Assembly (NCBI GenBank): GCA_001586195.1
Contig: CP014609.1
Coordinates: forward strand, 1,400,001 to 1,464,000
Direction: 5' to 3'
Length of the DNA: 64,000 nt
DNA from: Solibacillus silvestris
GTDB lineage: Bacteria > Bacillota > Bacilli > Bacillales_A > Planococcaceae
In this document: positions 4,003-63,270 of the stretch, one piece after another
Layout: each line of letters starts with the position of its first letter
Numbering within the stretch: the stretch's first letter is position 1
Notes under the pieces: model-generated
Databases searched by the model: none
What the model was told of the DNA's origin: nothing
What the model saw: only the letters and a program-made list of their open reading frames with translations
Made by a program: the position numbers and the translations under genes

Positions 4003-4052
4003 TTGGCGCGATTCTGTAATTGGAATCAGCGCTTATTTATTTTCTAGGGTGA
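4003..4052 (+). repeat. Family A repeat, divergent 5' part
   Basis: GGCGCGATTC, a loop, then GAATCAGCGC, followed by a T-rich stretch. The inner hairpin is conserved by pairing but its sequence differs from the canonical copies. The right outer arm is not recognisable. It begins 8 nt after the stop of the preceding gene. Confidence 0.6.
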
Positions 4053-4123
4053 AAATTTTGTACAAATAATCCTATGTAATTTTAAAGAATATAAAACTAA
4101 AGAAAAAAGAAAGAAGGTAACTG

Positions 4124-4267
4124 ATGGGTATACTATTCGCTATATTGTTTTTCGTTGGTCTCTTTGCTATATATGATTTGATTAGAAGAATGAACAATAA
4201 TATTCTGGAACAGACGGAAGAAATAAAGAAATTAAGAGAAGAAATAAATCAAAGAGATTATAAATAA
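4124..4267 (+). CDS. 47-residue membrane peptide
   Basis: Short ORF preceded by GAAGGT at about 4113-4118. It encodes one hydrophobic helix (residues 2-20), a basic RR, and then a charged amphipathic helix rich in Glu/Lys (EQTEEIKKLREEINQRD). This layout (TM plus coiled-coil tail) is common among small Bacillales membrane peptides. It follows a family A repeat directly. Function unknown. Confidence 0.5.
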   Translation: MGILFAILFFVGLFAIYDLIRRMNNNILEQTEEIKKLREEINQRDYK

Positions 4268-4333
4268 TCTAAAGCACTCTTGGACAATGTTTTATCAAAA
4301 TAAAAAATATAAATTCTTGTAGGGGGTTCTATC

Positions 4334-4669
4334 TTGCAACTATTAAATTTTACGAAAGATAAAGCGAAACCAGTTTTGAATTATAATTCAATTTTCACTA
4401 CCTATAATAAAATTATAAAAACTGAAACGCCCACAAATTTTGGATTTATTTATGTCGAAGCTAACGGTTTAGTAGGTCGTCATGAAGCACCTGTTCCACA
4501 ATTGTTTATCGTGATTGAGGGAGAAGGTTGGGTTCAGGGGAAAAGCGACGAGAAGGTAAAATTGCAAATGGGTGAAGCTGTCTTATGGGAAAAAGGAGAA
4601 AGTCACGTTTGTGGTAGTCAAAAAGGTTTCACTGCTATTGTTATACAATCAGTAGAGTTACAAATATAG
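4334..4669 (+). CDS. Cupin-domain protein
   Basis: 111 residues from TTG 4334, with AGGGGGT at 4320-4326. The sequence carries the two cupin strands pairs: GRHEAPVPQLFIVIEGEGWV (motif 1 region with His and Glu) and LQMGEAVLWEKGESHVCG (motif 2, with terminal His). It is a single-domain cytoplasmic beta-barrel. The metal ligands appear partly conserved (H, E, H). The reaction cannot be named. It is followed 27 nt later by a small membrane gene. Confidence 0.8.
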   Translation: MQLLNFTKDKAKPVLNYNSIFTTYNKIIKTETPTNFGFIYVEANGLVGRHEAPVPQLFIVIEGEGWVQGKSDEKVKLQMGEAVLWEKGESHVCGSQKGFTAIVIQSVELQI

Positions 4670-4696
4670 TATGGCCATAATTTTAGGAGGTAAAGA

Positions 4697-4861
4697 GTGA
4701 AAAATATACTGGGTTTAATAATGGGGTCTATAGCAGGTTGGTTAATATGGGGATATTTTACAGATGATTTTTCAGTAGAAAGGTTTTTCATGTTTTTAAT
4801 GGGAATCATTATAGGGTATTTATTCGGTAGAAGTAAACCAAAAGGCGAAAGGACGATTTAG
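4697..4861 (+). CDS. 54-residue two-TM peptide
   Basis: GTG start at 4697 with an excellent TAGGAGG at 4684-4690. It has two hydrophobic helices (about residues 4-20 and 30-46) joined by the acidic turn FTDDFSVE, and ends in a basic tail GRSKPKGER. It probably inserts as a membrane hairpin. It is co-directional with the cupin and SUKH genes. Function unknown. Confidence 0.55.
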   Translation: MKNILGLIMGSIAGWLIWGYFTDDFSVERFFMFLMGIIIGYLFGRSKPKGERTI

Positions 4862-4910
4862 GAACTTCATTCCAGGATTAGGGGGTATGTATTCAATGGA
4901 GGAATTAACA

Positions 4911-5393
4911 ATGAAAAGTATTTGGCAAGAGGAAAACGACTATTATAAATTAGGGCGGTTAAAAGATGAGATGGTAAAAAAAGCAGAAGAATTATTAAAC
5001 ATAAAGCTGCCTAATTCCTACATAAATATTTTGAAACAACAAAATGGAGGTTATATAAAATTTAATGCATACCCAACTAATATACCGAACTCTTGGGCAG
5101 AAGATCATGTTAATGTTGAGCACATAATTGGGATTGGATTGGGTATGGATAAAGGGATATTGCAAAGTGAGTATTTGATCCAAGAATGGGAACTACCTAA
5201 TAATGTTGTATTGATTTCTGGGGACGGCCACTCATGGATAGCTTTGGATTATAGAATTAAAATGACAGAACCTCCTGTAATTTTTATTGATACTGAAGAA
5301 GAAAAGATTATTGAACTTGCTCCTAATTTTGAAGCGTTTTTAAATGGGTTAACAGTAGGGAATAATAAAAGCTTAATTTCACACCAAGAATAG
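4911..5393 (+). CDS. SMI1/KNR4 (SUKH) family protein
   Basis: 160 residues. ATG 4911 is preferred because TGGAGG at 4898-4903 precedes it. The upstream ATG at 4887 is only 1 nt from its G-run. The SUKH signature is clear: LGRLKDEMVKKAEELLNIKLP, then SYINILKQQNGGY (the LP.SY...L..QNGG block), ISGDGHSWIALDYR and a late FIDTE. SUKH proteins commonly act as immunity proteins to contact-dependent or secreted toxins. No toxin gene is adjacent, so this looks like an orphan immunity gene. Confidence 0.85.
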   Translation: MKSIWQEENDYYKLGRLKDEMVKKAEELLNIKLPNSYINILKQQNGGYIKFNAYPTNIPNSWAEDHVNVEHIIGIGLGMDKGILQSEYLIQEWELPNNVVLISGDGHSWIALDYRIKMTEPPVIFIDTEEEKIIELAPNFEAFLNGLTVGNNKSLISHQE

Positions 5394-5430
5394 AAATGGT
5401 TTTAGGTGTATAAATATAAGTGAGGTGCAA

Positions 5431-5796
5431 ATGAAAAATCTGATTTTATTTCTCTTTATTCTTTCTTTAAGTTTTATCGTTCTAGGGTGCATTAATGAAA
5501 AACAGGTAGATCCAGTAGATTCTTTAAGTGAATTAGAGAAAGTATATATGGAAATGCGGGAAATTGCTTGGGCAAGTTTGAGCGATACGGATAAAGAAAC
5601 CGTGATGGGGAATTGGAAAGATGCGAAAGTAACTGAGGAACAGCTCAGCGTTAATGGTGAAGTACTCCCAGATAATAATCCAATGAAAGTCATGAAAGTA
5701 ATATTTAATACATCTCGAGACAGATTTCTGGGACCGATTGGCATCTATATAAATTCCGATACTAATAAAATAATTAGTAAAGACATAAGAATGTAA
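5431..5796 (+). CDS. Small lipoprotein, unknown
   Basis: 121 residues from ATG 5431, with GAGGTG at 5422-5427. The lipoprotein signal peptide ends in FIVLGC (lipobox, Cys about residue 16). The mature part of about 105 residues is acidic and contains a SDTDKETVMGNWKDAKV block and a C-terminal IGIYINSDTNKII strand. It should be anchored on the outer face of the membrane. Function unknown. Confidence 0.7.
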   Translation: MKNLILFLFILSLSFIVLGCINEKQVDPVDSLSELEKVYMEMREIAWASLSDTDKETVMGNWKDAKVTEEQLSVNGEVLPDNNPMKVMKVIFNTSRDRFLGPIGIYINSDTNKIISKDIRM

Positions 5797-5887
5797 ATAC
5801 CTCTAAAACAACCCTCAGGATAAAGCTTATCCGTTTATCAGAAAAATAATTCAGGAGTGCTTTACTTTAAGAAGCATTTTCATCAAT

Positions 5888-5936
5888 TGGGCGAGATTCT
5901 TAAACAAGAATTAGCGCTCAATTTTCATTTATGGGT
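5888..5936 (+). repeat. Family A repeat, divergent
   Basis: GGGCGAGATTCTT, loop AAACA, AGAATTAGCGCTC, then a T-rich stretch and ATGGGT. The inner hairpin is re-paired with different bases from the canonical copies. The outer arms are eroded. Confidence 0.6.
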
Positions 5937-5967
5937 ACAAAATGTAGGAGAAATGTTATGAAGTGCA

Positions 5968-6072
5968 TTGAATTTAAGAGAGGATAAAGTAGCGGATTAC
6001 AAAATCCCTATTGACTATGTATATTTCATATCTAACAATAACCTTTATGCAGAAGCTGATTCGTCAGACTAG
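5968..6072 (+). pseudogene. Possible C-terminal gene remnant
   Basis: A 34-codon open stretch after an in-frame TGA, reading ALNLREDKVADYKIPIDY then VYFISNNNLYAEADSSD and a stop. It has no ribosome site or credible start. Its codon use looks protein-like, so it may be the tail of a deleted gene. This is weak evidence. Confidence 0.25.
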
Positions 6073-6087
6073 AAGGTGGAATAAAAC

Positions 6088-8193
6088 GTGAGAAGAACGG
6101 AAAGAAGACAGCAACAAAAATTAACCGGGAAGATATGGAGTATGGTTAAAGATAAAAAAATAATGGTGAAGCTTATAGCAGTGGGTTCAGTATTTTTATT
6201 ATGCTGTTTCCTCATATTTAATATTTTTGTTTGGGCAAGCGATGTCAGTAAACTAGAAGAACCCACTCCGCAGCCAACGATTATTTATGATCAAAATGGA
6301 GAGGTAGCTAGTAAAGTTACCGGTTCCAAAATAGATGGAGTCAATATTGAACAGATTCCGGAAAATCTTATTCATGCTGTGATTGCAACGGAAGACCAGA
6401 AGTTTTACAAGCATGGTGGAATTAATATGATAGGGATTGTTCGGGCATTGACTCAAAACATGATGAGTGGAGAAATTGTGGCGGGAGGAAGTACGATTAC
6501 ACAGCAGTTAGCTAAAAATGTCTTTCTAACACAAGAACGTACATATACGAGAAAGCTAAAAGAACTCATATTGACGAAGAAAATTGAGCGAACATACGAT
6601 AAAGACGAAATAATGGAACGGTACTTAAACCAGATTTACTTTGGTGAAGGCGCATGGGGCATACAGCGTGCTTCCGAAACGTACTTCGGCAAAGATGTTA
6701 GTGAATTAACATTAGGTGAGTCGGCTATGCTTGCGGGGTTGATTAAAGCGCCGTCAGTTTTGTCACCATTAAAAGATATGAATAAATCAGTTCAACGGAG
6801 AGACCTTGTTCTAGCATTAATGGAAAAGGAAGGTTACATAACTCAAAACGATGCGAAAAAAGCAAAAGAACAACCTATTGTATTAGAGGGTAAAAAGATG
6901 GATGATTATAAGGGGAAATATCCTTATTATGTAGACCATATTATTGAAGAAGCGATCGAACAATACGGGCTTACAGAAAATGAGGTACTTTCGGGAGGAC
7001 TTCATATTTATACAGAACTTAATCCTGCAATACAAAATGCAGTTGAACAGGTATATAAAGATAATGAAATGTTTCCTGAAGGGCAATCGGACCAGTTAAT
7101 CCAAAGTGGAGCAATCTTCATCAATCCCTCAACCGGAGGAATCACTGCACTAATTGGAGGTAGAGGGGAACATACTTTTAGAGGATTTAATCGAGCTACT
7201 CAATTAAAACGTCAGCCTGCGTCAACTATGAAACCATTGGCGGCGTATACTCCTGCTTTGGAGCAAGGATATGAAATCTATGATAAGTTACAAGATTCAC
7301 CTATTAATATTGACGGGTATCAACCTATGAACTATGACAAACGATTCCATGGTGAAGTAACGATGTATGAAGCATTGGTGAATTCATACAACATCCCACC
7401 GGTATGGTTATTAAATAAAATGGGACTGAAATACGGTATAAATGCTGTTGAGCGTTTTGGTATTAAACTAAAAGAAGAGGATCATAATTTAGGTTTAGCA
7501 CTTGGTGGTATGAGTGAAGGCATATCTCCTTTATCTATGGCTCAGGCATATTCCACATTTCCTAATGATGGTGTAATGGTAGAAGCACACTCTATACAAA
7601 AAATTGAAGATGCAGATGGCGAGGTCATTGCTAAGTGGCATTATAATGAGACGAGCGTTACGAAGCCCCTAGTCGCTCAAGAAATAACATATATGCTTAA
7701 GGGCGTTGTTGAAGAAGGTTCAGCAAAGAATGCTCAAGTGGAAGGATGGGAAGTAGCCGGTAAAACGGGCACGACCGAGCTTCCTTTTGCGAATTCAGGG
7801 GGCGCGAAGGATCATTGGTTTGTAGGATATACGCCAGAAATTGTTGGGGCAGTTTGGATGGGATATGATCAAACAGATGAAAATCATTATTTGTTAGGAA
7901 CTGGCGGATCTACTGTCACAAAGATTTTCAAAGCCGTTTTGGCTGAATCTATGACGGAATTTAACCAAAAAGAATTTAACTTACCTCTACTAGGCAAACA
8001 GCTAAAAGAACAGGAAAAGAAAGAGGAAGAGCAGAGGAAGAAAGAAAAAGAGATAGAGAAAAAAGAGAAGAAGGAGAAAGAAAAAGAGAAGGATAAGGAG
8101 AAGAAAGAGAAAGAAAAAGAGAAGAAAGAGATGGATAAAGAGAAGAAAGACAAGGAAAAGGAGAAGGAGAACAAAAAGGAGGAAAAAGAGTAA
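6088..8193 (+). CDS. Class A penicillin-binding protein (bifunctional transglycosylase/transpeptidase)
   Basis: 701 residues from GTG 6088, with AAGGTGG at 6073-6079. It polymerises lipid II and cross-links peptidoglycan outside the membrane. Order: basic N-terminus, TM 27-50, GT51 domain with [10 protein letters not shown] (catalytic E102) and [12 protein letters not shown] (134-145), then a transpeptidase domain with S379-T-M-K382, S433-Y-N435 and K559-T-G561. All catalytic residues are present. The C-terminal 60 residues (from about 640) are almost pure Lys/Glu, an unusual polyampholyte tail. There is no partner gene next to it, and its flanks are accessory DNA. Confidence 0.93.
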
Positions 8194-8370
8194 TTTGAAA
8201 TAATCGAGGTTTATTATGAGGGAAATCCTACTTTTCTAGATAGAATCTGTTTGCTGACTTTTATAGCCATTTTTTCTTAGCAATTATTCATTTAGCCGAA
8301 GAGAGGGGTTCCATACCATCTTTATTGAAAAAAGGTTGAGTTTTAAAATTTTTTTAATCTAAAGTGAAGA

Positions 8371-8395
8371 AGCCCGTGAAAAAATCTCACAGGCT
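8371..8395 (-). terminator. Hairpin between convergent genes
   Basis: AGCCCGTGA and TCACAGGCT form a near-perfect stem downstream of the repeat-protein gene. There is no long U-run on either strand, so it is a weak terminator at best. The rest of 8194-8426 shows nothing else. Confidence 0.4.
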
Positions 8396-8426
8396 TTGCT
8401 AATAAATTTATCAAGACTTAGGTATT

Positions 8427-11843: not shown

Positions 11844-11896
11844 CTATTCAACAATAAGGCGCGACGCGTTTTTCAAGGTCATTTTCTGGAATAATG
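11844..11896 (+). repeat. Family A repeat, internally deleted
   Basis: TATTCAACAATAAGGCGCGA, then CGCGTTTTTC, then AAGGTCATTTTC and TGGAATAA. The hairpin loop and one stem strand are missing. It lies in the 359-bp gap 11633-11991 upstream of the DUF3885 gene. A ATTTATGTTAAAATTCAAT block follows, as also seen after the copy at 54537. Confidence 0.6.
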
Positions 11897-11991
11897 TTTA
11901 AATAGTAAGTTTGATATTTATGTTAAAATTCAATGATAATTAATTTATTTAAATTCAACAAAAATAGTAATGGAGCTGAAAATGGATATTT

Positions 11992-12642
11992 ATGAAACTA
12001 CAAGAAATTATGGAAAAACATTTTAATGGCCTTTCTATAACACCAGATTTTTATCATCAATGGAATATCGGTATACATCTAGAATTAGGAAATGACATTT
12101 ATCAGTTTGGTGACAATAACCGCCTTAACATGAAAAGGTTTAATACGATTTATGAACAGGTATCTGCAATTGTTCCAATACTTTTCAAGAAAATGGATGA
12201 CGTCTTAGTGGTGGTAAATTCATACCCCCATGAAACAAACAAAGTAGTTTATCCTAACTTTTTCAAACGATATGTAAAAGAACAAAAATTAAAGTATTTC
12301 TTGCACTTACATGAGTTCCAATGGAAGTTCGATGAAGATAATTTACTTATTCAGCAAATGACATTGTTCTGTAAAGCTTCTGATTTGAAGATAGAACAGC
12401 TTTTGAAAACATTAATTCATGAGAATTTCCATCCTCTACAACCTCGGTTAAGAAAAGCACATAGCTATTATGCACCTGATGTTTTTTTAATAAATGTTAA
12501 TACTAATTGTATTTTTCATTTATACGATGATAGAGGGTGTGAAATAATAAGCGCAGATAAAGAACTACATGAAAAATTCCTTGAAACATTTAGTGGGTGG
12601 GAATTGCAGGAAAAATCTTTATCTTTTCGTTTAACTACTTAA
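11992..12642 (+). CDS. DUF3885 domain-containing protein
   Basis: 216 residues, cytoplasmic. Features of DUF3885: an early IGIHLELGNDIYQF block, then FNTIYEQVSAIVPILF, VVVNSYPHE and the C-terminal IFHLYDDRGCEIIS. The ATG at 11992 lacks a well-placed ribosome site (GGAG is about 17 nt upstream), so the start may differ. DUF3885 genes are frequent orphan accessory genes in Bacilli. The function is not established. A family A repeat begins 6 nt after the stop. Confidence 0.75.
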   Translation: MKLQEIMEKHFNGLSITPDFYHQWNIGIHLELGNDIYQFGDNNRLNMKRFNTIYEQVSAIVPILFKKMDDVLVVVNSYPHETNKVVYPNFFKRYVKEQKLKYFLHLHEFQWKFDEDNLLIQQMTLFCKASDLKIEQLLKTLIHENFHPLQPRLRKAHSYYAPDVFLINVNTNCIFHLYDDRGCEIISADKELHEKFLETFSGWELQEKSLSFRLTT

Positions 12643-12647
12643 TATTC

Positions 12648-12718
12648 TTATTCCATAATATGGAGCGATTCTTCAATAAGAAGATCGCGTTTTTCCGTTA
12701 TAGAGCAAGACTGTTAAG
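12648..12718 (+). repeat. Family A repeat, long form
   Basis: TTATTCCATAATATGGAGCG, then GATTCTTC-AATAA-GAAGATC and GCGTTTTTCCGTTATAG. The inner hairpin is canonical. The right outer arm is eroded to GAGCAAGACTGTTAAG. Confidence 0.8.
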
Positions 12719-12805
12719 GAAGGCTCTTAAGTATTCATGTAGAATAGTATTGTATAGACGTACACTTTAACTGTAAGAATTGTACAGAAGAAGGATGGGT
12801 AAATA

Positions 12806-13511: not shown

Positions 13512-13548
13512 TTCGAACAGCTATTTTAGTAGTAATCAATTCTTGATC

Positions 13549-13620
13549 TTTAACAATCGGGCGCGATTCTTCAATAAGAAGATCGTGTTTTTCCGTTATA
13601 GGGCCATATTGTTGAACAAT
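13549..13620 (+). repeat. Family A repeat, long form
   Basis: CTTTAACAATCGGGCGCGAT, hairpin CTTC-AATAA-GAAG, GATCGTGTTTTTCCGTTATA, then GGGCCATATTGTTGAACAAT. Nearly canonical. It lies 38 nt after the lipoprotein stop. Confidence 0.85.
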
Positions 13621-14074: not shown

Positions 14075-14119
14075 AATATATAGAGAAGGATGAGTGAAGG
14101 TTGGTTATCATTCTTTCAA

Positions 14120-14191
14120 TATTCAACCATCGGGTGTAATTCTTGAAAAGACTTATGCCTTCTTCAGCTAAAGAGCCATATTGTTGAATAA
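14120..14191 (+). repeat. Family A repeat, degenerate long form
   Basis: TATTCAACCATCGGGTGTAA at the left and AGAGCCATATTGTTGAATAA at the right. The inner hairpin (TTCTTGAAAAG...CTTCTTCAGC) has diverged, but both outer arms are intact. Confidence 0.75.
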
Positions 14192-14560: not shown

Positions 14561-14637
14561 CTTGTGCTTATATTCCACAAGGGTGTATAAAGTTTTTAAA
14601 TATTTTCCCAAATAAAAGTTTGGAAACACAGAAAACG

Positions 14638-14671
14638 ATATTCAACAATCGCGCACGAATATTGAATAATG
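14638..14671 (+). repeat. Family A repeat, short form
   Basis: ATATTCAACAAT, a CGCGCACGA spacer, then ATATTGAATAAT. Only the outer arms remain, without the inner module. The remainder of the gap 14561-14896 contains just the terminator at 14743-14786. Confidence 0.6.
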
Positions 14672-14742
14672 ACATTTTTCTTTTTTTCATAGCCACAATC
14701 TTTGAGAAAAGTGAATTAAGTAAAGTAAAGACCAAAATTTTA

Positions 14743-15746: not shown

Positions 15747-15996
15747 AAAAAAGCATTTCCATCCCTACAAACAAGTAAGGACGAAAATGCATTGATTTCC
15801 GCGGTACCACCTTTATTCACACATAAAGTGTGCAGCTTCAGCCTTTTTATCGCAAAGGGTACGGTTATGTTGTCATAACGGCTCAAAAGGAGGTTCAATT
15901 ATTCCAGCGGGTTATGCCGATTTCAGCAAAGACGGCACTCTCTAAAACCTTAAAATAATTTACTTGGCTTTATCATTGCCTGTAAATTTTGAATTA
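15747..15996 (-). promoter_or_regulatory. T-box leader (tRNA-Pro sensing) of proC
   Basis: On the minus strand the leader holds the T-box core AAGGTGGTACCGCGG (15799-15813). After it comes the terminator GCATTTTCGTCC / GGGATGGAAATGC with TTTTTT (15747-15790). The 5' stem I shows AGAGAGTGCC and, in the specifier loop, GAACCTCC followed by TTTTGAGCC. The most plausible specifier is CCT (CCU, proline), which agrees with the downstream gene. Uncharged tRNA-Pro would stabilise the antiterminator and raise proC expression. Confidence 0.92.
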
Positions 15997-50242: not shown

Positions 50243-50294
50243 TCTGGTATTTTAATAAAAATTGTTAAAAAACCTGTATGGAATGCATTTTTCT

Positions 50295-50328
50295 TATTCC
50301 ACAATCGGGCCAAATTGTGATGAAGAAT
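50295..50328 (+). repeat. Family A repeat, short form
   Basis: TTATTCCACAATCGGGCC then AAATTGTGATGAAGAAT. The outer arms are joined at a single GGGC, with the inner module absent. Confidence 0.7.
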
Positions 50329-51580: not shown

Positions 51581-51654
51581 TTATTCAACAAACGGGCGCG
51601 ATTCTTCAATAAGAAGATCGCGTTCTTCCGTTATAGGGCCATATTGTTGAATAA
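51581..51654 (+). repeat. Family A repeat, canonical long form
   Basis: Outer arms TTATTCAACAA and TTGTTGAATAA; GGGC at 51594-51597 and again 51636-51639; between them GCGATTCTTC-AATAA-GAAGATCGC and GTTCTTCCGTTATA. Used as reference copy: 74 bp. Confidence 0.92.
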
Positions 51655-51690
51655 GAAAAGGTACTGATTAATTCAATAAGAGACTTGCTT

Positions 51691-51890
51691 TACAAGTATT
51701 TATACAAAATAAGAACAAGCTCAGCAAGTATAAACACCGTTCCAACTAGGGTTTGCATCTTCTGTATAAAATGCTGAATTACCTAATGTTAATACAAAAG
51801 GGTACGAAACGTTGATTTAACAACGTTCGTGCCTTTTTTATGTGTCCCCAAAATTTTATTAGGAAATATTTTTTTGTATAGATTTGTATA
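51691..51890 (+). repeat. Family B repeat
   Basis: TACAAGTATTTATACAAAAT...CTCAGCAAGTATAAAC, hairpin GTACGAAACGTTG / CAACGTTCGTGCC with TTTTTTA (51811-51842), then CCCCAAAATTTTATTAGGAA and TTTGTATA. It is 37 bp after the family A copy at 51581. Confidence 0.7.
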
Positions 51891-52083
51891 AATAGTTATG
51901 CATAAAAACCTCTCTTCTACTAACTTTTACTTTAAGTTACCTTTGCAGATTATTAATAGTTAAGTCTCATGTTATTACGAGAATTAATCGCTCGATTTTA
52001 ATAATATTAAATAAAAGTTGAACTTTGTTAAAGAATAAATTAATATTAAGTTAAATTAAGTTAATAAGGAGGTTGGTTGTACA

Positions 52084-52791: not shown

Positions 52792-52865
52792 TTATTCCAC
52801 AATCTGGCGCGATTCTTCAATAAGAAGGTCGCGTTTTTCCGTTATAGGGCCATTTAATTGAATAA
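52792..52865 (+). repeat. Family A repeat, long form
   Basis: TTATTCCACAATCTGGCGCG, ATTCTTC-AATAA-GAAGGT, CGCGTTTTTCCGTTATA, GGGCCATTTAATTGAATAA. Hairpin has one altered pair (GAAGGTCGC). Confidence 0.88.
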
Positions 52866-52910: not shown

Positions 52911-52956
52911 TGTGAAGTAATGTACTTAAACTAACGGGCAGGTTAGTTAATGAAGG
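52911..52956 (+). repeat. Family C leader motif
   Basis: GTGAAGTAATGTACTTAAAC, then TAACGGGCAGGTTAGTTAAT. The second part is an inverted repeat (TTAAACTAAC / GTTAGTTAA). The first 20 bases recur at 54659. It lies in the leader of the DinB gene at 53007. Confidence 0.65.
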
Positions 52957-53006: not shown

Positions 53007-53522
53007 ATGAAGAGAAAAAATTTATTGATATCACCCTTACCAGATTTCGAACCAGAGATTGGTCGATGGATATGGTGTTTAGAAGACATTCGGCGAACTA
53101 TTTTAGAAAGAATATCAGGGGAAAGTCAGCCTTTTCTTGATACAAAATTTAAGGAAGGGCATTCAATAGGATCCTTGTTATATCACATCGCATTAATTGA
53201 GGCGGACTGGTTATATGAAGAAGTTCTTGGCGGTGAATGGAACCCAACGATCCGTTCTTTATTTCCTCAAGAAGATCGTAATGATGATAAAACTTTGACA
53301 TATATTGTGGGACAAGACTTAGATGAACGCTTACATCGACTAAAATCTGTGCGTGATGAATTGCTTTTCCATTTTCGTTCTATGGACTTAAAGGACTGGC
53401 GTAAACCAAGGTTACTTAATCACTACGATGTAACACCTGAGTGGGTTATCTACCATCTCATTGAACACGAATCTCATCATAGGGGACAGATTTTCCTTAT
53501 ACTTGAAAATTTAAAAAAATAA
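53007..53522 (+). CDS. DinB-family protein
   Basis: 171 residues. Four-helix DinB bundle with the three metal-binding His positions: LLYHIALIEADW (first) and HLIEHESHHRGQIF (second and third). Family members are thiol-dependent transferases or DNA-damage inducible proteins; this one's role is unknown. AGAGGAGAAAA ribosome site. Followed by a truncated methyltransferase remnant. Confidence 0.88.
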   Translation: MKRKNLLISPLPDFEPEIGRWIWCLEDIRRTILERISGESQPFLDTKFKEGHSIGSLLYHIALIEADWLYEEVLGGEWNPTIRSLFPQEDRNDDKTLTYIVGQDLDERLHRLKSVRDELLFHFRSMDLKDWRKPRLLNHYDVTPEWVIYHLIEHESHHRGQIFLILENLKK

Positions 53523-54536: not shown

Positions 54537-54610
54537 TTATTCCACAATCGGCGAGATTCTTCAATAAGAAGATCGCGTTTTTCCGTTATAGGGCCATTTT
54601 CTAGATTAAC
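54537..54610 (+). repeat. Family A repeat, long form
   Basis: TTATTCCACAATCGGCGAGA, TTCTTC-AATAA-GAAGA, TCGCGTTTTTCCGTTATA, GGGCCATTTTCTAGATTAAC. Right arm mutated, inner hairpin canonical. It lies in a divergent gene gap. Confidence 0.88.
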
Positions 54611-54658: not shown

Positions 54659-54700
54659 GTGAAGTAATGTACTTAAACTATCGCGCAGGATTGTGTAAGA
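54659..54700 (+). repeat. Family C leader motif
   Basis: GTGAAGTAATGTACTTAAAC, then TATCGCGCAGGATTGTGTAA. The first 20 bases are identical to 52912-52931. Located in the leader of the GNAT gene, after the family A copy at 54537. Confidence 0.65.
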
Positions 54701-54724
54701 AGTCAGTAAATTAGGAGAGTTATA

Positions 54725-55192
54725 ATGCGATACATTATAAGGTTTGCAAATGAAAACGACTTGTCTGGTTTATGTAGTATTAGGAATAATCGAGCTTTAT
54801 TTATTCATTATCTAAAGAAATTTATGAATAAAGAAATTTATTTGCTAATTGCTGAACAAAATTCAATTATATTAGGTTTTGGATTGCTTAAGATTAAAGG
54901 TACATTACACCCCAAATTAAGCGACCTTTATGTAAAAGAGGAATATAGGGGAAATGGTATCGGTTCAGATTTAATAAGATGCAGGGAAAATATCGCAAGG
55001 AATTTAGGTTATACGGAGATATATGTGAGTGTTGATCCAATAGAGAATCCTAAGATGGTTAAGTTAATTAAAAAGCACAGTTATGAAACTATATCAGAAC
55101 CATATATAAAGAAAACAATTTTTTATGATAGTGATGGATCTTCTTATGATAAAACTTACCAGAGAATTGATTTAAAGAAGATATTGAACTAA
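54725..55192 (+). CDS. GNAT-family N-acetyltransferase
   Basis: 155 residues with AGGAGAG before ATG 54725. Acetyl-CoA binding motif A: LYVKEEYRGNGIGSDLIRCR (R/Q-x-x-G-x-G/A loop). Preceding strand LLIAEQNSIILGFGLL and following HSYETISEPYIKK are typical. Acceptor unknown. Accessory gene behind repeats A and C. Confidence 0.88.
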   Translation: MRYIIRFANENDLSGLCSIRNNRALFIHYLKKFMNKEIYLLIAEQNSIILGFGLLKIKGTLHPKLSDLYVKEEYRGNGIGSDLIRCRENIARNLGYTEIYVSVDPIENPKMVKLIKKHSYETISEPYIKKTIFYDSDGSSYDKTYQRIDLKKILN

Positions 55193-55633: not shown

Positions 55634-56593
55634 ATGATTTCTTTAAAAGATGTGAAAGATGGCAGAGAACGAATTAGCGATATAGCGGATGTAACACCAA
55701 TTTTACAATCAAGGCAACTTTCTGAAATATGCGGGAATCAGATGTTTTTAAAATCAGAGCATTTACAAAAAACAGGGTCATTTAAAATACGAGGAGCAAG
55801 TAATAAAATTATTCATGCGATTGAAAAGGGTGCGAAGTTTGTAACAGCAGCATCATCAGGGAATCACGGTCAAGCCGTTGCTTATGTTGCAAAAAAATAC
55901 GGAGTTCCGGCAACCATTGTAGTGCCTGAAAACGTTAGTAAGTGTAAGGTTAACGCAATCCAAACTTATGGTGGTAAGGTGGAAATGTGCGGGACTACTT
56001 CTGGAGAACGTATACCAAGAGCACAGGCGATTGCAGATCAAGAAAACGGCGTATACATTCCCCCTTATGACGACCCATTGATTATGGCAGGGCAAGGAAC
56101 TATTGGATTGGAAATTTTGGAACAGGTTGATAATGTTGATGTAATCATTGTCCCGGTTGGTGGTGGTGGACTTATATCGGGAATTCTAACAGCCATTAAA
56201 GAAACTAACCCGAAAATAAAAGTAATTGGGGTAGAACCTGAACTTGCTAATGATACATATCTATCATTACAAAGTAAAAAAATCACCACAATTCCTGTTA
56301 GTCAGACCATTGCGGACGGATTAAGAACTAACCAGCCCGGTGACCTAACCTTCCCTGTACTTATGAAATATCTAGACGATATTGTCCTTGTGAGTGAAGA
56401 TGAAATTCGTCAGTCCTTTAGTTTTGTCATGGAACGTACGAAACAACTAATAGAAACATCGGCAGCCGTAACGATCGCAGCAGCTATGTTTAATAAACTA
56501 AACATTCAAGGTGAAAATATCGCAACTGTTATCTCTGGCGGAAATGTGGACCTAGACAAAGTCCATCAATTCATTGTAAGTAGTGAGAAATGA
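55634..56593 (+). CDS. Threonine/serine dehydratase-family PLP enzyme
   Basis: 319 residues with TAGGAGG upstream. Fold-type II PLP enzyme: Schiff-base lysine in TGSFKIRGASNK, ASSGNHGQAVAYVAKKYG, PVGGGGLISGI (phosphate loop) and VISGGNVD. No C-terminal ACT domain, so it resembles catabolic threonine dehydratase (TdcB-like) or serine racemase rather than IlvA. Likely deaminates threonine or serine to the 2-oxo acid. Looks like an accessory gene bordered by repeats. Confidence 0.9.
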   Translation: MISLKDVKDGRERISDIADVTPILQSRQLSEICGNQMFLKSEHLQKTGSFKIRGASNKIIHAIEKGAKFVTAASSGNHGQAVAYVAKKYGVPATIVVPENVSKCKVNAIQTYGGKVEMCGTTSGERIPRAQAIADQENGVYIPPYDDPLIMAGQGTIGLEILEQVDNVDVIIVPVGGGGLISGILTAIKETNPKIKVIGVEPELANDTYLSLQSKKITTIPVSQTIADGLRTNQPGDLTFPVLMKYLDDIVLVSEDEIRQSFSFVMERTKQLIETSAAVTIAAAMFNKLNIQGENIATVISGGNVDLDKVHQFIVSSEK

Positions 56594-56670: not shown

Positions 56671-56703
56671 TTATTAAACAATCGGGCCATATTGTGGAGC
56701 AAC
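56671..56703 (+). repeat. Family A repeat, short form
   Basis: TTATTAAACAATCGGGCC then ATATTGTGGAGCAAC. Outer arms joined at one GGGC; the 42-bp inner module present in long forms is exactly missing. Confidence 0.78.
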
Positions 56704-56760
56704 ATTTTTCTTGGGGGAGTCCTAGAGAAGATGCAGATTTATATTGATAAAAGAATGGCT

Positions 56761-56951
56761 ATACAAGTTTTTATGCAAATTAAAGATCAAGCCCAGCAAG
56801 TATAAAAGCTGCTTTAGTAACGTTTCATTGACTTGCATAAAATCACGTACAAACAATGTTCCATAAGAAAAGCGAGAAACTTTATTAAATCAACGTTTCC
56901 CGCATTTTGGTGTATTCCCAAACTTTGTTTTGGGAATGTTATTTTGTATAG
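56761..56951 (+). repeat. Family B repeat
   Basis: ATACAAGTTTTTATGCAAAT, GCCCAGCAAGTATAAAAGCT, hairpin GCGAGAAAC...GTTTCCCGC (56871-56904), then CCCAAACTTTG / TTTTGGG and TTTTGTATA. Strongly similar over its first half to the copy at 57720. Confidence 0.78.
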
Positions 56952-57584: not shown

Positions 57585-57660
57585 TTATTCAACTATCGGG
57601 CGTGATTCTTCAATAAGAAGATCGCGTTTTTCTGTTAAAGGGCCAGATTGTAGAACAACA
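57585..57660 (+). repeat. Family A repeat, long form
   Basis: TTATTCAACTATCGGGCGTG, ATTCTTC-AATAA-GAAGAT, CGCGTTTTTCTGTTAAAG, GGCCAGATTGTAGAACAAC. Confidence 0.9.
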
Positions 57661-57719
57661 TTTTTTCTCGAAGGGGAGTGTTAGAAAAGATGTAGATTTA
57701 TAATGATAAAAGAATGGCT

Positions 57720-57900
57720 ATACAAGTTTTTATGCAAATTAAAGAACCTGCCCAGCAAGTATAAAAGCTACTCTAATAATGTTTGTTTCATTTATATACA
57801 TAAAATCTCGTATAAACAATGTTTCAATAAAAAATCGGTAAACGCTGAAACAACAACGTTTTATATCTCCCAACTTTGATTTGTGAATGTTATTTGTTTT
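57720..57900 (+). repeat. Family B repeat
   Basis: ATACAAGTTTTTATGCAAAT at its start is identical to the copy at 56761. Then GCCCAGCAAGTATAAAAGCT and a weaker hairpin with AACAACGTTTTAT. Tail CCCAACTTTGATTTGTGAA. Confidence 0.78.
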
Positions 57901-57966
57901 CTTTATGTATTAAGTTATACTATATTTTTTATCTAATGTTATATTTAACAAATCGGAGGAATTACT

Positions 57967-58389: not shown

Positions 58390-58394
58390 CAAAA

Positions 58395-58430
58395 TGAGCC
58401 ACGTTTAAGTTAATTAAACGAGGCTTATTT
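58395..58430. terminator. Intrinsic terminator
   Basis: GAGCCACGTTTAA / TTAAACGAGGCTTA stem followed by TTT. Serves the 57967 gene. Confidence 0.65.
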
Positions 58431-58507
58431 AGTTCCCGAAGTGGGGATTGGGCACATTTCGAAATGCTTGTTCCATTAAGCACCCGTTAGTAGAAAAAGG
58501 TATAATC

Positions 58508-58870
58508 TCAATTTGTTATTCTAAGATGATTTTTAAGCACTTTAAATGGAATAGCATAAGAATCATTAAATTTCTTGATATGATTTGTTAACTCAGACCA
58601 ATTACTTTCAAGAAATGGGTGAATCTGAGTTGTATCTGCAATACTATACAGTTCAATTAAAAAGTAAAGAGCTTCCCAGATCAAATAGTCTTCGTCTAAC
58701 TTAAATAACAACTCAATGACTTTTGGTAAATAATTATATGCTTCTTCAGAAGTCATTCCTTTAGTAATTGATTCAAAAGAAATACTGAAATACCACTCGT
58801 TCTTTTCTAATTTATCTTGCCATTCTTCATAAATTTCCAGTAATCTAATATCCGATTTAATCACGTCCAA
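58508..58870 (-). CDS. Hypothetical acidic helical protein
   Basis: 120 residues on the minus strand from TTG 58870 (weak ribosome site). All-helical, acidic: LLEIYEEWQDKLEKNEWYF, YNYLPKVIELLFKLDEDYLI and a basic tail KVLKNHLRITN. Resembles small helical immunity proteins in size and character only. Function unknown. Confidence 0.5.
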   Translation of the reverse strand: MDVIKSDIRLLEIYEEWQDKLEKNEWYFSISFESITKGMTSEEAYNYLPKVIELLFKLDEDYLIWEALYFLIELYSIADTTQIHPFLESNWSELTNHIKKFNDSYAIPFKVLKNHLRITN

Positions 58871-59029
58871 TGTTAGAAATACTTTATCACTTCTTGTTCA
58901 ACTAAATTGCCTCGTTAGTTGAAGTATAACCTTCCTAAACCGTTGTTTCATACCCTTAATTAAGTCCCCAAAATTGTATTTGGGAACTTCTTTGTATGTA
59001 AGGCAGTAAACCTTACGAATAACTATCCC

Positions 59030-59062
59030 TTATTCAATAATAGGGCCATATTATTGAATAAC
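59030..59062 (+). repeat. Family A repeat, short form
   Basis: TTATTCAATAATAGGGCC then ATATTATTGAATAAC. Compensatory change: both outer arms carry AATAAT instead of AACAAT/ATTGTT, keeping the pairing. Confidence 0.78.
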
Positions 59063-59169
59063 ATTCTTTTTATGCAAGGTTCCCAACTGACGCCAATCAC
59101 CAACCATTCAATTGAATGAGGGCTGAATTTGGCTGCTTATGAACAGTAGGTTACCAAATGTGAACTTAT

Positions 59170-59201
59170 AAAACCCGTTCAAATGCTCTGAACGGGTTTT
59201 A
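59170..59201 (-). terminator. Intrinsic terminator of the sigma/anti-sigma operon
   Basis: AAACCCGTTCA / TGAACGGGTTT stem; on the minus strand it is followed by TATAAG, with extra T in the stem foot. Confidence 0.75.
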
Positions 59202-59208
59202 CTATTTG

Positions 59209-60168
59209 TTAATTTAAATCAATTGTAATAGGTTTCAATTGCTCTGTTTTAGCGCTATTTATTTTTAATACAGGTACGATTTTGATGGAAGTTGTATCTT
59301 TAGGAAGTTCTAATAAAAGAGTAGCGTTACTAATTTGATTAAAGTTTACTTTTTCACCATGAAAATTATAGGCTTCGAAAGTATAAGTTTGCCCTTCAAT
59401 TGTTGACTCAAAGTTTGCTGTATAAGAGATTCTCGCATTCGTTCGGCCAATTTGAATTTCATCAAATGTAATGCTAAGTTCTCTGTTTTTTGAAGTGACT
59501 TGTTGATTGATGATTAGCTGCTTAATCGGTAATTTTTCTACAGCTAAGTCAAATGACCATTCTCCCCTAACACCAGCCATATGCGTGAATGTAATAGGGA
59601 ATGAGATAACATCTTCTGTAACATTAGCAGGGACATCTAAAATAAGCGCACCCGTATAACCGTTTTCAGTTTTTGTTAATGACCCTAATGCGCCACCCCA
59701 AGTGGACGTGTCTTTGCCATCAAACATTTCGTAAGTAAAGCCTGCTTCCGGTGCTGTATCGCCACCGATTGTATTCGTCACTGCACCCGTTGCTTTAAAT
59801 GTTATCCCTACATATGCTGTATCATAAAAAACAGATGTTACCTCCACCTGGATATCTTGATCATTTGCAATGAGTGACATTTCAGTAAGTAGTTGTTCGT
59901 GGGCAATCTGTTCACCAATCGACATTTGATATTTTTCATAAATACCGCCTATTAAGGGAACTTGTGCTAACACATTCGAAACAGGTGTGAAAATAAACCC
60001 TGAAGCCAGAAACAGGGCTGCTGCTACAGAAGTAAAACACGTCATGCGCTTTGTCACCTTTGTACGTTTCGCTTTTATCTCAAGCTGTTGCGCTTGCTCA
60101 ATACCTAAATGAATTGCCTGGAAAACTTCATCTGTTGGCACTTCAATCTCATGTAAATCTTTGCGCAT
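59209..60168 (-). CDS. DUF4179 anti-sigma-factor-like membrane protein
   Basis: 319 residues. Short cytoplasmic head (about 44 residues), one TM (FTSVAAALFLASGFIF, about 45-62), then a large extracellular beta-rich DUF4179 domain with EKYQMSIGEQIAHEQLLTEM. Overlaps the upstream sigma gene by 20 bp, the usual arrangement for an ECF sigma and its membrane anti-sigma. Expected to hold the sigma factor inactive until an envelope signal arrives. Confidence 0.85.
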   Translation of the reverse strand: MRKDLHEIEVPTDEVFQAIHLGIEQAQQLEIKAKRTKVTKRMTCFTSVAAALFLASGFIFTPVSNVLAQVPLIGGIYEKYQMSIGEQIAHEQLLTEMSLIANDQDIQVEVTSVFYDTAYVGITFKATGAVTNTIGGDTAPEAGFTYEMFDGKDTSTWGGALGSLTKTENGYTGALILDVPANVTEDVISFPITFTHMAGVRGEWSFDLAVEKLPIKQLIINQQVTSKNRELSITFDEIQIGRTNARISYTANFESTIEGQTYTFEAYNFHGEKVNFNQISNATLLLELPKDTTSIKIVPVLKINSAKTEQLKPITIDLN

Positions 60169-60688
60169 AGTAATCGTCTCCTAACTTTTGTTTTAATTCC
60201 AATTTTGCTCGGCGTAAATACGTTTTAATCGTAGAAGAGGGTTTCCCCATCGAAGCAGCAATTGTTCGAATCGGTAAATCATAATAATAAAATAGTAAGA
60301 TGGCGTTTTTATATTCAGGTTTTAATGTAGCTAGTGATTCTGTTAAATCAAACGTAGGCTCTTCTACTTGGTTCGATTCCAAAATGTATGTAATTGTTTC
60401 TTCGGGTAAAGTAATTAATTTTTTCTTTTGTTCTAATTCCTTGTAAGCGGAACGGATTAAAATTTTGATAAGCCATGTGCTAAAGTAGGCTGGCTCCTTG
60501 AGTTGTCCGATTGCTAAATAAGCTTTGCAAGTAGCTTCTTGAAGTACATCTAATGTATCTTCTTTATTTTGCATATGGAGAAAGGCAATTTTATATAATT
60601 TCTCACCTTCACCTTTTAATAATTCCTCAAAAGCTAGCTTGTCCCCATGAATAGCTTTAAAAGCTAGATGTTCCTTTTTATTGTTCAT
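60149..60688 (-). CDS. ECF RNA polymerase sigma factor
   Basis: 179 residues with AAGGAGG before ATG 60688. Region 2: KIAFLHMQNKEDTLDVLQEATCKAY...FSTWLIKILI. Region 4: LKPEYKNAILLFYYYDLPIR, then MGKPSSTIKTYLRRAKLELKQKLG. Partner of the overlapping DUF4179 protein. No promoter of the ECF type could be fixed by eye. Confidence 0.93.
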   Translation of the reverse strand: MNNKKEHLAFKAIHGDKLAFEELLKGEGEKLYKIAFLHMQNKEDTLDVLQEATCKAYLAIGQLKEPAYFSTWLIKILIRSAYKELEQKKKLITLPEETITYILESNQVEEPTFDLTESLATLKPEYKNAILLFYYYDLPIRTIAASMGKPSSTIKTYLRRAKLELKQKLGDDYYAQRFT

Positions 60689-61080
60689 GAGCTAACCTCC
60701 TTTCACTTATTAGAGCAAATAATTCTATTATAAAGTTTCAAAATCTAAAAAGAATTTTAGGAATATGTAATCTGTGATGAATTCAACTGTAAATAGGAGG
60801 AAAGTGTAGTTTAAATGTAGTGCTTTTTAGGTAGCACAACAAGGATTTCAAAAACAACGAATTTACACACTAGTGAATAGTAGCTTCAGAAAAATGCAGT
60901 TTTATAACGGTAAGCACTTAATGTTACCAAACAAGAGTTTGAGGACACAGAAAAAGATCTTCAACAAAACCAGCTAATAGTTGTCAATAATTTTCATTAA
61001 AAATAATAAAAATATCATGTTATACTAAATTTGTGCATGCCAAATAACCGTCCAAATTCTTGATTTGGAAAGTTTAGGTT
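60689..61080. other. Intergenic region upstream of IS110
   Basis: About 390 bp. Contains a family A left-arm fragment GATCTTCAACAAAACCAGC (60957-60975) and a CCAAATTCTTGATTTGG hairpin (61061-61077) similar to family B tails. No gene seen. Confidence 0.5.
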
Positions 61081-61100
61081 TGCTTGGTTAAATTGTTAAA

Positions 61101-62337
61101 TCAAGCTATGTCTTGGAAAGAAGTTTTGTTTTTTAATAGTGCATAAATCCAATGTAAGAGTTTGTTTGCACAAGCTATTACAGCTACTCTAAATGGTTTT
61201 CCTTCTTCACGTTTTTTATCATAAAACGCCCGTAGTTTCTTATTACGAGGAAGGATTTCATCTGTAGTTTTCTGTTTTCGACAATCACGAATTTGCACAT
61301 TTAACAGCCATATACAAAGCTTGCCGTAGTCTGCTAGAGCCTCTTTTGGTTATTCGGTTGTAAGTGCCTTTGAATGTACCTGATTCAAAGATACTTGGAT
61401 CAAGACCGGCAAATGCGACTAGTTTCTTAGGGTGATTAAACCTTTCAATTTCCCCAATTTCAGATATAATCGTGGCAGCGATTTTTTCTCCGATACCAGG
61501 AATTGATTGGATAATCTTCGATTCTTCAATACTTTTGGCCAAAGCATCTATCTCATTTTCAAGTAGGGATAGGTGTTTTTTGTATTCGAAGATCATGTTA
61601 ATATACATATCTAAACTTAGGGCAAGGCTAGAATATAAAGCCTGTTGAAATGGATTTTGAGCTGCTGCAGTCATTAGCTTTTCAGCCTGTTGATTTGCCC
61701 ATTGTAGAGAACGAGAATTACAGAATTCTTTTATTTTAGTTGTTAATACTTCGTTATTGGCGCTCAATATATCTTCTGAAGTAGGATAAGTCTGTAGTAT
61801 TTTTAAAGAAACATTCGAATATAAGTCGCCAAAAACATTACTATATTCAGGGAATACTTGATCTAAGACTGCCTGGAATTGTAGTTTAGTTTGTACAAAC
61901 ATGCCTGTAATATTATCGTGTTGTCTCGTAAGATGAGGTAAGTTCGCAAGTTGGATGCCACGCTTTTTATAAGGCTCTAAATCCTCTTTATAATACAGCT
62001 CGCAGAGATGATTGGCATCAACGATATCTGTTTTTACCTTTCGTAAACTAGAACTTTTCGTCTTATAAGAGATGAGTGGATTTACGATAATGATTAAATA
62101 ACCTTTGTCTTCAAAATATTGAACAACTGGTGTGTGATAATGGCCTGTAGACTCCATAACTAGGGGAGGTCGCTCTCCTGAAATATCTTCTACTTCTTTA
62201 ATAAAATCTAATAAACTAGCTAACCCATCAAGATCATGTTTTACTTTAAAGCTTTTCTTGTAGGGCTTCTTTCTTTCTAAATAAGCTTGAACCTGACTTT
62301 CACCTTTAGCTACATCCAGGCCAATGACTGGATTCAT
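61101..62337 (-). pseudogene. IS110 transposase, frameshifted near its C-terminus
   Basis: 350 residues from ATG 62337 read normally: GLDVAKGE (DEDD Asp), MESTGHYHTP, KVKTDIVDANHL (Asp pair), PGIGEKIAATIISEIG and FAGLDPS, ending in ITKRGSSRLRQALYMAV. Then one extra A in GCAAATTCG (about 61294) shifts the frame; the remaining segment (IRDCRKQKTTDEI, FYDKKREEGKPFRVAVIACA, NKLLHWIYALLKNK) continues in the next frame to 61101. All catalytic motifs precede the shift, so partial activity cannot be excluded. Confidence 0.85.
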
Positions 62338-62340
62338 TAT

Positions 62341-62548
62341 AATTCCTCCTTCAAAATGATAATTGCCGGTAACCCCTAAATCCTCTTTGTAGTGTCATAG
62401 CTTCGCTTGTTATACGAGATCACTGTCCCAACCAGCCTCAAACATGTTTCTACAAGTAGGGGGTGAACTGTTTTGCGGACGAGGTCTTAGCCCCACGGGC
62501 GCGAACGTTCTACCTCGGCTACCGTTATCATATATCGATATAAAAAAT
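62341..62548 (-). ncRNA. Putative IS110 bridge RNA region
   Basis: Non-coding stretch between the right end and the transposase start. On the minus strand a sigma-A-like promoter TTGACC, 16 bp, TATGAT (spanning 62528-62555) precedes a structured segment with CGAGGT / ACCTCG (stem around 62485-62516), GTTGGGACAGTG and several G/C-rich loops. Location and structure fit the bridge RNA of IS110-group elements. Loop-target pairing could not be assigned. Confidence 0.55.
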
Positions 62549-62580
62549 GGTCAACCAGAAATATTTTCTGGCTGACCTAA

Positions 62581-62650
62581 TAATACGATCGGGCGCTTTT
62601 CTGATTAGAAAAGTGCTTTATTAAATTATAGGGCCAAATTGTTGAGTAAA
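62581..62650 (+). repeat. Family A repeat, long form with altered left arm
   Basis: ATACGATCGGGCGC, TTTTCT-GATT-AGAAAA, GTGCTTTATTAAATTATA, GGGCCAAATTGTTGAGTAAA. The inner stem is completely re-paired (TTTTCT/AGAAAA). The left arm lacks TTCAACA where the IS110 end abuts. Confidence 0.8.
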
Positions 62651-62764
62651 GTAAATAAAAAATTTTATGTAATGCCCTTTAACTAACGCAGCAGTTTAAT
62701 TTAGAAAAAGGAATATTTCTTGTCTTCTAGAATTTATAGATATACAACTCTAGGAGGGGAATAA

Positions 62765-63154
62765 GTGATTTTTGAAATTACTAATCAAGTCCGTGTTACT
62801 GATATCCAACAAGGGCAAAGGTGGTATGAAATTTTACTAAATAAAAAACCTGATTTTATCCCACATGAAGGATTCGCCGAATGGGAGATAATACCTGGTT
62901 ATTGGTTGCAAGTTGCTGAAGGAGTGCCTTCTGAAGGCAGTGGACCTTTACGTTTAGGGGTTACTAATATAATTGCTGAAAGAGATAGACTTGTAAAAGA
63001 GTTAGGAATTGAGAAATTTGATATATTTTCTCGTGAAGAAGTAACTGCAAAATGGGGATCTTTTACTGATCCCTGGGGGAATGAACTGGGTTTCTTTGAA
63101 TATTTGGATAAGAAAGAAGAAAACGATCGTGTTAAAACTATTTTGGGGATTTAA
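62765..63154 (+). CDS. VOC-family (glyoxalase/bleomycin resistance-like) protein
   Basis: 129 residues from GTG 62765 with TAGGAGGGG upstream. Single VOC domain: TDIQQGQRWYEILLNKKPDF at the N-terminus, EWEIIPGYWLQVAEG in the middle and WGSFTDPWGNELGFFEY (metal Glu in the last block) at the end. Cytoplasmic. Substrate unknown. Leader contains a C-like TTAACTAACGCAGCAGTTTA. Confidence 0.88.
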   Translation: MIFEITNQVRVTDIQQGQRWYEILLNKKPDFIPHEGFAEWEIIPGYWLQVAEGVPSEGSGPLRLGVTNIIAERDRLVKELGIEKFDIFSREEVTAKWGSFTDPWGNELGFFEYLDKKEENDRVKTILGI

Positions 63155-63200
63155 TCCACGTGAAAGATTTTTGACAAAAATTAATTGAACAAGGAACTAC

Positions 63201-63270
63201 AATTATTGGGATGCAATTCTGTAATTAGGATCAGCGCTTTTTTCATTAAAGGGTCATATTGTTGAATAAC
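63201..63270 (+). repeat. Family A repeat, divergent long form
   Basis: AATTATTGGGATGC, AATTCT-GTAATT-AGGATC, AGCGCTTTTTTCATTAAA, GGGTCATATTGTTGAATAAC. Same hairpin variant as the copy at 4003. The right arm is perfect, the left eroded. Confidence 0.75.

Follow-up and report, generated by a model that had tools for sequence, protein, structure and literature searches.

Unidirectional repeats of Solibacillus silvestris as probable recombination sites of an integron-like gene-cassette system in Bacillales

Introduction

What keeps a short repeat pointing in a single direction, whatever the strand of the genes beside it? The question is raised by a stretch of 64,000 nucleotides of Solibacillus silvestris (hereafter the window; bases 1400001-1464000 of the 3.99-Mb single-contig genome, CP014609.1), in which an original prediction, made from the letters alone, listed about 17 copies of a nested inverted-repeat element, here called family A, all on the + strand, confined to two accessory stretches and missing from the core-metabolism block at 15-50 kb. 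We regard these elements as probably the recombination sites of an integron-like gene-cassette system in Bacillales with a dedicated Xer-type recombinase. Four features that emerge from sequence comparison point this way: polarised arrays, an anatomy of core sites, homology that changes across the element, and linkage to a recombinase.

Clusters of Uniform Orientation

Copies were sought with a profile built from 32 S. silvestris copies and with a covariance model (R1); the covariance search of the S. silvestris genome scored 150 of 3565 first-look candidates, so its counts are lower bounds and weak copies may have been missed. It places at least 74 copies at an expectation value (E) of 0.01 or below in eight clusters, none of them mixed: four copies at 374-378 kb, two at 1012 kb, 28 at 1406-1530 kb and six at 2887-2899 kb on the + strand, and three at 1629-1668 kb, 24 at 1865-1935 kb, two at 2014-2016 kb and five at 2961-2969 kb on the - strand; opposite-strand matches (E 0.09-1) overlie stronger ones. 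A shuffled control (200-base blocks) held no profile match of 12 bits or more in 874 kb. The guanine-cytosine (GC) skew is positive as far as 1.544 Mb, then negative at 1.62 Mb and beyond, and from this change of sign it follows that 68 of the 74 copies are co-oriented with leading-strand synthesis, on an assignment of replichores taken from skew in sampled stretches, not from a mapped terminus. The exception is one whole cluster, that at 2887-2899 kb (L043), for which an inversion or an independent insertion may account. Direction belongs to the individual cassette cluster, and in large part to the replichore, rather than to the + strand: the claim that all copies lie on + stands for the significant copies of the window and falls for the genome, where clusters occur on both strands. 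A covariance scan and a tabulation against replication had been proposed as tests of the original prediction, and equal numbers in both orientations were not found.

As had been claimed, a copy keeps its direction whatever the strand of the neighbouring gene. The gene upstream lies on the same strand in 59 cases and on the opposite one in 32 (mechanical open reading frames (ORFs) of at least 75 amino acids, S. silvestris stretches), and 24 of the 59 copies with a same-strand upstream gene start no more than 50 bp past its stop codon, in line with the earlier remark that many copies do so. Within the window, 12 of the 17 listed places are recovered at E ≤ 0.01 (5888, 12648, 13549, 14120, 51581, 52792, 54537, 56671, 57585, 59030, 62581 and 63201), 14638 and 4003 reach E 0.014 and 0.08, respectively, and 9051, 11844 and 50295 have no match at E ≤ 1 among the candidates scored; by eye, the last of these (start 50294) has one core only, 11844 is fragmentary, and 9051, with 6.6 bits by profile, is doubtful. 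The family is real. The one - strand match of at least 11.5 bits in the window, 50282-50319, is a near-palindromic short copy whose strand call is meaningless, and the 15-50 kb block is empty at that score, as predicted. GC content is 0.32-0.36 in the accessory stretches and 0.36-0.44 in the block. An Rfam scan of the window found no curated family that fits family A at gathering score; its sole match is a T-box leader (RF00230) at 15774-15985 on the - strand.

The family extends well beyond this genome, with a match at E ≤ 0.001 in 110 of 250 genomes of the host family. We sampled 40 stretches from 19 relatives, 38 of them with elements of at least 14 bits and 34 with two or more, and 199 of the 204 elements at this score have the majority orientation of their stretch.

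Two Tandem Cores

The earlier description of a nested inverted repeat enclosing a second GGGC identified a genuine repeat, which we re-read as two tandem core sites. Each core has the 13-6-13 geometry of tyrosine-recombinase sites, and short copies are single cores, some of them with perfect 13-bp arms. In 185 of 284 elements (the others lack the left half or lie near an end), aligned on the first GGGC, core 1 reads tTATTCAACAATC-GGGCGC-GATTCTTgAATAA (169 distinct), its left arm also being given as TTATTCAACAATC before GGGCGC-GATTCTTgAATAA; core 2, TTTTTCCGTTATA-GGGCCA-TATTGTTGAATAA (89 distinct), is weaker. The inverted arms of core 1 match at 7.4 of 13 positions, as against 4.1 in permuted columns (maximum 6.0).

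The inner hairpin pairs the right arm of core 1 with the spacer, and different base pairs maintain it in several sequence types. The segment that contains it folds better than shuffled sequence (mean z -2.67, n=178, against -0.15 in control segments); in copy 51581 the top strand folds at -19.4 kcal/mol (z -7.0) and the bottom strand at -16.6 kcal/mol (z -5.1). In RNAalifold, three of 11 pairs are changed on both sides, with a covariation term of only -0.2; MAFFT pushes differing hairpin types into a single register, and the mononucleotide shuffle test is the better, still limited, evidence. A run of T follows the inner hairpin in the canonical type.

Units That Change Neighbours

The copies separate units of one or a few genes, and homology that extends as far as an element mostly breaks close to GGGCGC. 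Pair counts given here are not independent, and family numbers therefore stand alongside. In a first set, drawn from the same 185 elements, 32 pairs share homology upstream only, 33 downstream only and two on both sides; the latter two are overlapping neighbours, separated by 46 and 140 bases, and were left out, and 15 of the 32 upstream pairs stem from an insertion sequence, leaving 17. In an enlarged set of 501 of 514 elements (S. silvestris stretches, the 40 stretches of relatives and 80 recombinase loci), 131 pairs share the upstream side (31 families) and 224 the downstream side (36 families), and none of the 355 shares both. Gene ends lying away from elements, used as control anchors, gave two-sided homology in 28 of 93 pairs (23 of 64 families) in the stretches of the first set. 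Over the stretches of the enlarged set, in which fetched recombinase genes inflate the number of one-sided pairs, it was 43 of 1051 pairs, or 36 of 85 families.

Whole units recur. One with a gene for 171 amino acids stands in four contexts, at 377, 1525 and 1897 kb in S. silvestris and in a relative (G132), with homology that runs from inside the preceding element to the GGGCGC of the next and unrelated sequence outside. Six complete units, each bounded by elements, match in two contexts; four of these matches are between genomes, and one of the four crosses genera (G132 and G137). Of 12 alignments shared upstream, four stop between +5 and +9, counted from the first G, and three between +19 and +33; of 32 shared downstream, 11 start at -21 to 0 and one at +8. 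As far as the alignments can tell, the point of exchange is defined less sharply than the change of neighbours.

The cargo is accessory: 20 proteins of one array include four GNAT acetyltransferases, others such as a glyoxalase-like protein, a sigma factor and a GGDEF protein, and six without a Pfam match. Some elements are followed directly by about 235 bases of conserved non-coding sequence (window 51658-51892, 56707-56944 and 57661-57896), which recurs after other elements in S. silvestris and relatives and is possibly a unit without an ORF or a structured leader. Element matches also occur on nine plasmids, of Lysinibacillus, Peribacillus, Cytobacillus, Metabacillus and Pseudalkalibacillus, three of the matches covering at least 80% of the element; such plasmids are a possible vehicle between genera.

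A Linked Recombinase in Two Groups

In array stretches of relatives, a gene for a tyrosine recombinase of 283 amino acids was found 39 bases upstream of an element. The recombinase is itself a unit in such arrays and is present in Planococcaceae and Bacillaceae; homologues sharing at least about 60% identity occur widely in the host family and are often broken. The best 80 of 307 relatives come from Lysinibacillus, Ureibacillus, Sporosarcina, Psychrobacillus, Peribacillus, Neobacillus, Fictibacillus, Sutcliffiella, Rossellomorea, Virgibacillus, Halobacillus and other genera. At 13 close loci (L076-L088), the unit starts at GGGCGC after variable left arms in eight and at one-base variants in two, and a GGCCA core 2 lies past the recombinase stop codon in eight; no fixed platform of attI type was recognised at these 13, where the unit starts like other units. 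The catalytic residues R, K, H, R, H and Y are retained in 70-71 of 71 uninterrupted recombinases. Three homologues score 93-102 bits (101.6 at the top) against the IntI model TIGR02249, with its cut-off of 265, and the best curated model is the XerA-type NF040815 (cut-off 220), which two of them pass (227.8 and 225.3) and one falls below (204.2). The recombinase is Xer/XerA-like, not IntI.

The orientation of sites follows the type of recombinase. On a tree of 71 of the 80 sequences (nine with internal stops left out), the elements of at least 16 bits adjoining 26 group-B recombinases number none co-oriented and 30 opposite, and those adjoining the other 45 number 78 and two. A first split between L172 and L173 (33 against 47 loci), chosen after the orientations had been seen, gave 85:2 and 3:32 at the same score; the tree reassigns five sequences. 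A B-type arm, ACTTAAACTAACGGG, is opposite in 59 and the same in three occurrences at group-B loci (62 in 362 kb), and stands no more than 160 bp from the stop codon, allowing up to four mismatches, at 17 of 33 group-B loci and none of 47 others. The window has two sites of this second type (arm ACTTAAACTAAC, of the type common beside group-B recombinases) just downstream of family A elements, a B-type site ACTTAAACTAACGGGCAGGTTAGTTAATGAAG at 52924-52955 (+) and a B-like site ACTTAAACTATCGCGCAGGATTGTGTAAGAAG at 54671-54702 (+).

Element and recombinase also tend to occur in the same genomes. With recombinase presence cut at about E 1e-61 and one distant match removed by hand, 47 of the 250 genomes have both, 63 elements only, 20 recombinase only and 120 neither (Fisher p 7e-7, uncorrected for kinship). 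Four tandem tyrosine recombinase genes at 355129-359685 of the S. silvestris genome (L031:10129-14685), one of them encoding 616 amino acids with repeated N-terminal SAM-like domains, and with a related copy at 383239, were set aside as the enzyme: no element of at least 11.5 bits lies in the 10 kb before or the 13 kb after them, and elements elsewhere track the other recombinase family.

A Proposed Reaction

In the mechanism that we propose, the 283-residue Xer-type recombinase would bind the inverted 13-bp arms and exchange strands within the 6-bp centre GGGCGC of core 1, the exact point being approximate. If exchange falls there, a unit runs from the GGGCGC of one element through its hairpin and second core, then through a promoter region and one or more genes, to the left arm and GGGC of the next. 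The copies of an array would share one orientation, whatever the strand of their cargo, because a non-palindromic centre allows a single joining register. Catalysis would fall to the dedicated recombinase rather than to host XerC/XerD, and units would pass through an excised circle in a reaction similar to that of integrons.

Elements and Cargo of the Window

The canonical long element lies at 51581-51654 (E 3e-22; fold z as above), with core 1 at 51581-51612 (TTATTCAACAAAC-GGGCGC-GATTCTTCAATAA), a spacer at 51613-51622 and core 2 at 51623-51654 (TTCTTCCGTTATA-GGGCCA-TATTGTTGAATAA); like all window features in this paragraph except the insertion sequence, it is on the + strand. Further long elements are found at 52792-52865 (E 4e-20), 54537-54609 (E 4e-18, the first centre one base short), 57585-57658 (E 2e-21), 13546-13619 (E 2e-21), 12648-12721 (E 2e-15) and 14119-14191 (E 2e-14, of a divergent hairpin type), and divergent ones at 63196-63269 (E 8e-9) and 5873-5947 (E 1e-5). 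Short elements with single cores stand at 56671-56702 (TTATTAAACAATC-GGGCCA-TATTGTGGAGCAA; E 0.002), 59030-59061 (TTATTCAATAATA-GGGCCA-TATTATTGAATAA; E 0.001, fold z -5.0) and, recognised by sequence, weak in the profile and absent at E ≤ 1, 50294-50325 (TTATTCCACAATC-GGGCCA-AATTGTGATGAAG). A partial element at 14636-14681 (E 0.014), a weak divergent copy at 4003-4049 (8 bits; E 0.08) and a fragmentary one at 11844-11898 (12.5 bits; not at E ≤ 1) complete the set. Among the cargo, a DinB-superfamily gene (53007-53522) lies between elements 52792 and 54537; there follow genes for a GNAT acetyltransferase (54725-55192) and a pyridoxal phosphate-dependent (PALP) enzyme (55634-56593), and at the other end of the window a DUF3885 gene (11992-12642) is followed by element 12648. 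In the long element at 62578-62649 (E 4e-13), the end of an IS110-type insertion sequence takes the place of the left arm; the insertion sequence itself, at 60968-62580 (-) with approximate ends, carries a transposase ORF at 61285-62337 (-). Copies of 94-99% identity, some partial, occupy the same position in other elements at 377, 1479, 1490, 1630 and 1909 kb of the genome, and the insertion is at the same arm position in seven anchored elements.

Counter-evidence and Rival Explanations

Several observations weigh against a dedicated cassette system. Of the 34 stretches of relatives with at least two elements, four (L057, L064, L110 and L121) are mixed, and of the five minority copies four are short near-palindromes of 32-37 bases and the fifth, in L064, is a complete long element. 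Two insertion-like cases, with one common element, appear weakly in the enlarged pair set. Five of the 12 alignments shared upstream stop ahead of the element and 20 of the 32 shared downstream start only at +29 or later, and the exchange point therefore rests on a minority. The mobility of units is itself deduced from comparison. The symmetry of core 2 (7.0 of 13; permuted mean 4.4) stays within the permuted maximum (7.00 against 7.03), which makes this core less certain than core 1. The outer arms lack covariation (7.92 observed against 7.94 shuffled, in 123 of the 185 elements), and a required outer stem is therefore unsupported; if left arm and right part come from different units, no covariation is predicted, as found. 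As to the enzyme, the node that unites the 26 group-B recombinases has support of 0.0 (0.82 for a subset of 19), B-type arms beside other recombinases are 18 same and one opposite (19 in 511 kb), and a regular expression for the A-type left arm gives 11 same and nine opposite there, probably because the pattern also fits core 2 reversed. No close recombinase accompanies the elements in 63 of the 110 genomes that bear them, and the S. silvestris copy, outside the window at 1494181-1494687, is broken or truncated, the genome being counted among the 47; the arrays of S. silvestris are probably a relic or served in trans.

The 63 element-bearing genomes without a close recombinase would suit recombination of the cores by host XerC/XerD, as for Acinetobacter dif modules, with the linked recombinase just cargo; the Xer-like 13-6-13 geometry and the Xer/XerA-like character of the linked enzyme would suit it too. 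Yet sites keep a constant direction relative to the recombinase, one that reverses from one group to the other, whereas neighbouring genes generally have no such fixed relation to the sites (59:32), B-type arms are denser beside group B than elsewhere, and the sites of dif modules alternate in orientation, which those of family A mostly do not; we consider this explanation unlikely. Shuffling of genes by RecA-dependent homologous recombination between dispersed 75-bp repeats, with no dedicated enzyme, could draw on the many repeats per genome, up to 97% identical to one consensus, but units are also joined by elements with little in common apart from the left arm and GGGCGC, or by single cores of 32 bp, some alignments end a few bases from the 6-bp centre, and the sites are linked to a family of site-specific recombinases, so that we find it decidedly improbable.

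Short, palindromic, intergenic and multicopy, the elements could also pass for a miniature inverted-repeat transposable element (MITE) or a repetitive extragenic palindromic (REP)-like repeat inserting downstream of genes. An inserted repeat, however, leaves its flanks syntenic, whereas not one pair in the enlarged set is two-sided, and neither the uniform clusters of S. silvestris nor the empty core block fit; such an origin is very improbable. A terminator or 3'-untranslated-region RNA element, with shuffling secondary, would explain the strongly folding inner hairpin, the T run of the canonical type and the co-oriented genes that end shortly ahead of a copy, but not copies after genes of either strand, their absence from the core block, single cores without a hairpin or the change of neighbours across the element. 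As the primary role it is extremely improbable; termination may be a second function. The earlier judgement, which offered no mechanism, that one-orientation copies confined to accessory stretches fit neither terminators nor randomly inserted MITEs is upheld, and sites of a cassette system with its own recombinase remain the reading that we prefer.

Comparison With Known Systems

No description of such a cassette system was met in the literature searched, a statement limited to those searches; of the core strings used in a full-text search one matched, in papers biomedical by title. The Bcr repeats of B. cereus stand outside the comparison with family A. Nearer at hand are the Xer-dependent pdif modules of Acinetobacter plasmids (PMC6449649), in which Xer-type cores likewise flank small accessory modules; these use host XerC/XerD, whereas family A has a linked dedicated recombinase as its putative catalyst, mostly direct sites and large chromosomal clusters. 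Insertion sequences of the IS1111-attC group (ISKpn4, ISPst6; PMC11187229) target attC, and the IS110-family element at a constant place in the arm of family A sites resembles them, in another host group and at another target site.

The closest likeness is to integrons: both are arrays of small units with accessory cargo and sites mostly in one orientation, as in the uniform clusters of S. silvestris and the stretches of relatives. The attC motifs RYYYAAC/GTTRRRY, seen in the arms of family A, were considered as grounds for identity and kept as analogy only, given a recombinase that is not IntI and an exchange that seems to map elsewhere. In both systems a site consists of two simple sites with inverted arms and is dyad-symmetric as a whole (for attC, PMC2727003), many arrays lack an intact integrase, and IS110/IS1111-type insertion sequences target the sites. 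A preferred orientation to replication is shared as well, 25 of 30 arrays of sedentary integrons being polarised in this way (PMC5371416), beside the great majority of family A copies here. The differences are that the family A recombinase, of Xer/XerA-like type, does not pass the IntI model, that exchange appears to lie at the centre of core 1, most of the site staying at the 5' end of the next unit in a mirror image of attC, and that the recombinase is inside a unit, a fixed attI platform not being seen. Because the integrase test fails and the geometry differs, we class this as an integron-like cassette system outside the integron family. In Firmicutes, the IntegronFinder 2.0 paper (PMC9024848) reports one complete integron (Limnochorda) and a few clusters of attC sites lacking an integrase (CALINs), integrons being extremely rare there.

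A bolder proposal, to which we give about even credence, is that Bacillales evolved the integron a second time, with a Xer-derived, self-mobile recombinase of two specificities (A and B), double-core, partly hairpin-forming sites whose top strand may recombine single-stranded as in attC, and large exchangeable arrays in Planococcaceae and Bacillaceae; such a gene-sharing network would have been overlooked because searches for IntI and attC cannot see it. The system might account for some of the small-gene accessory content of these genomes and could provide a ready marker for unit boundaries. Set beside integrons, it could also serve as a separate test case for what an integron requires, be it IntI, single-stranded attC, or just directed cores together with a recombinase.

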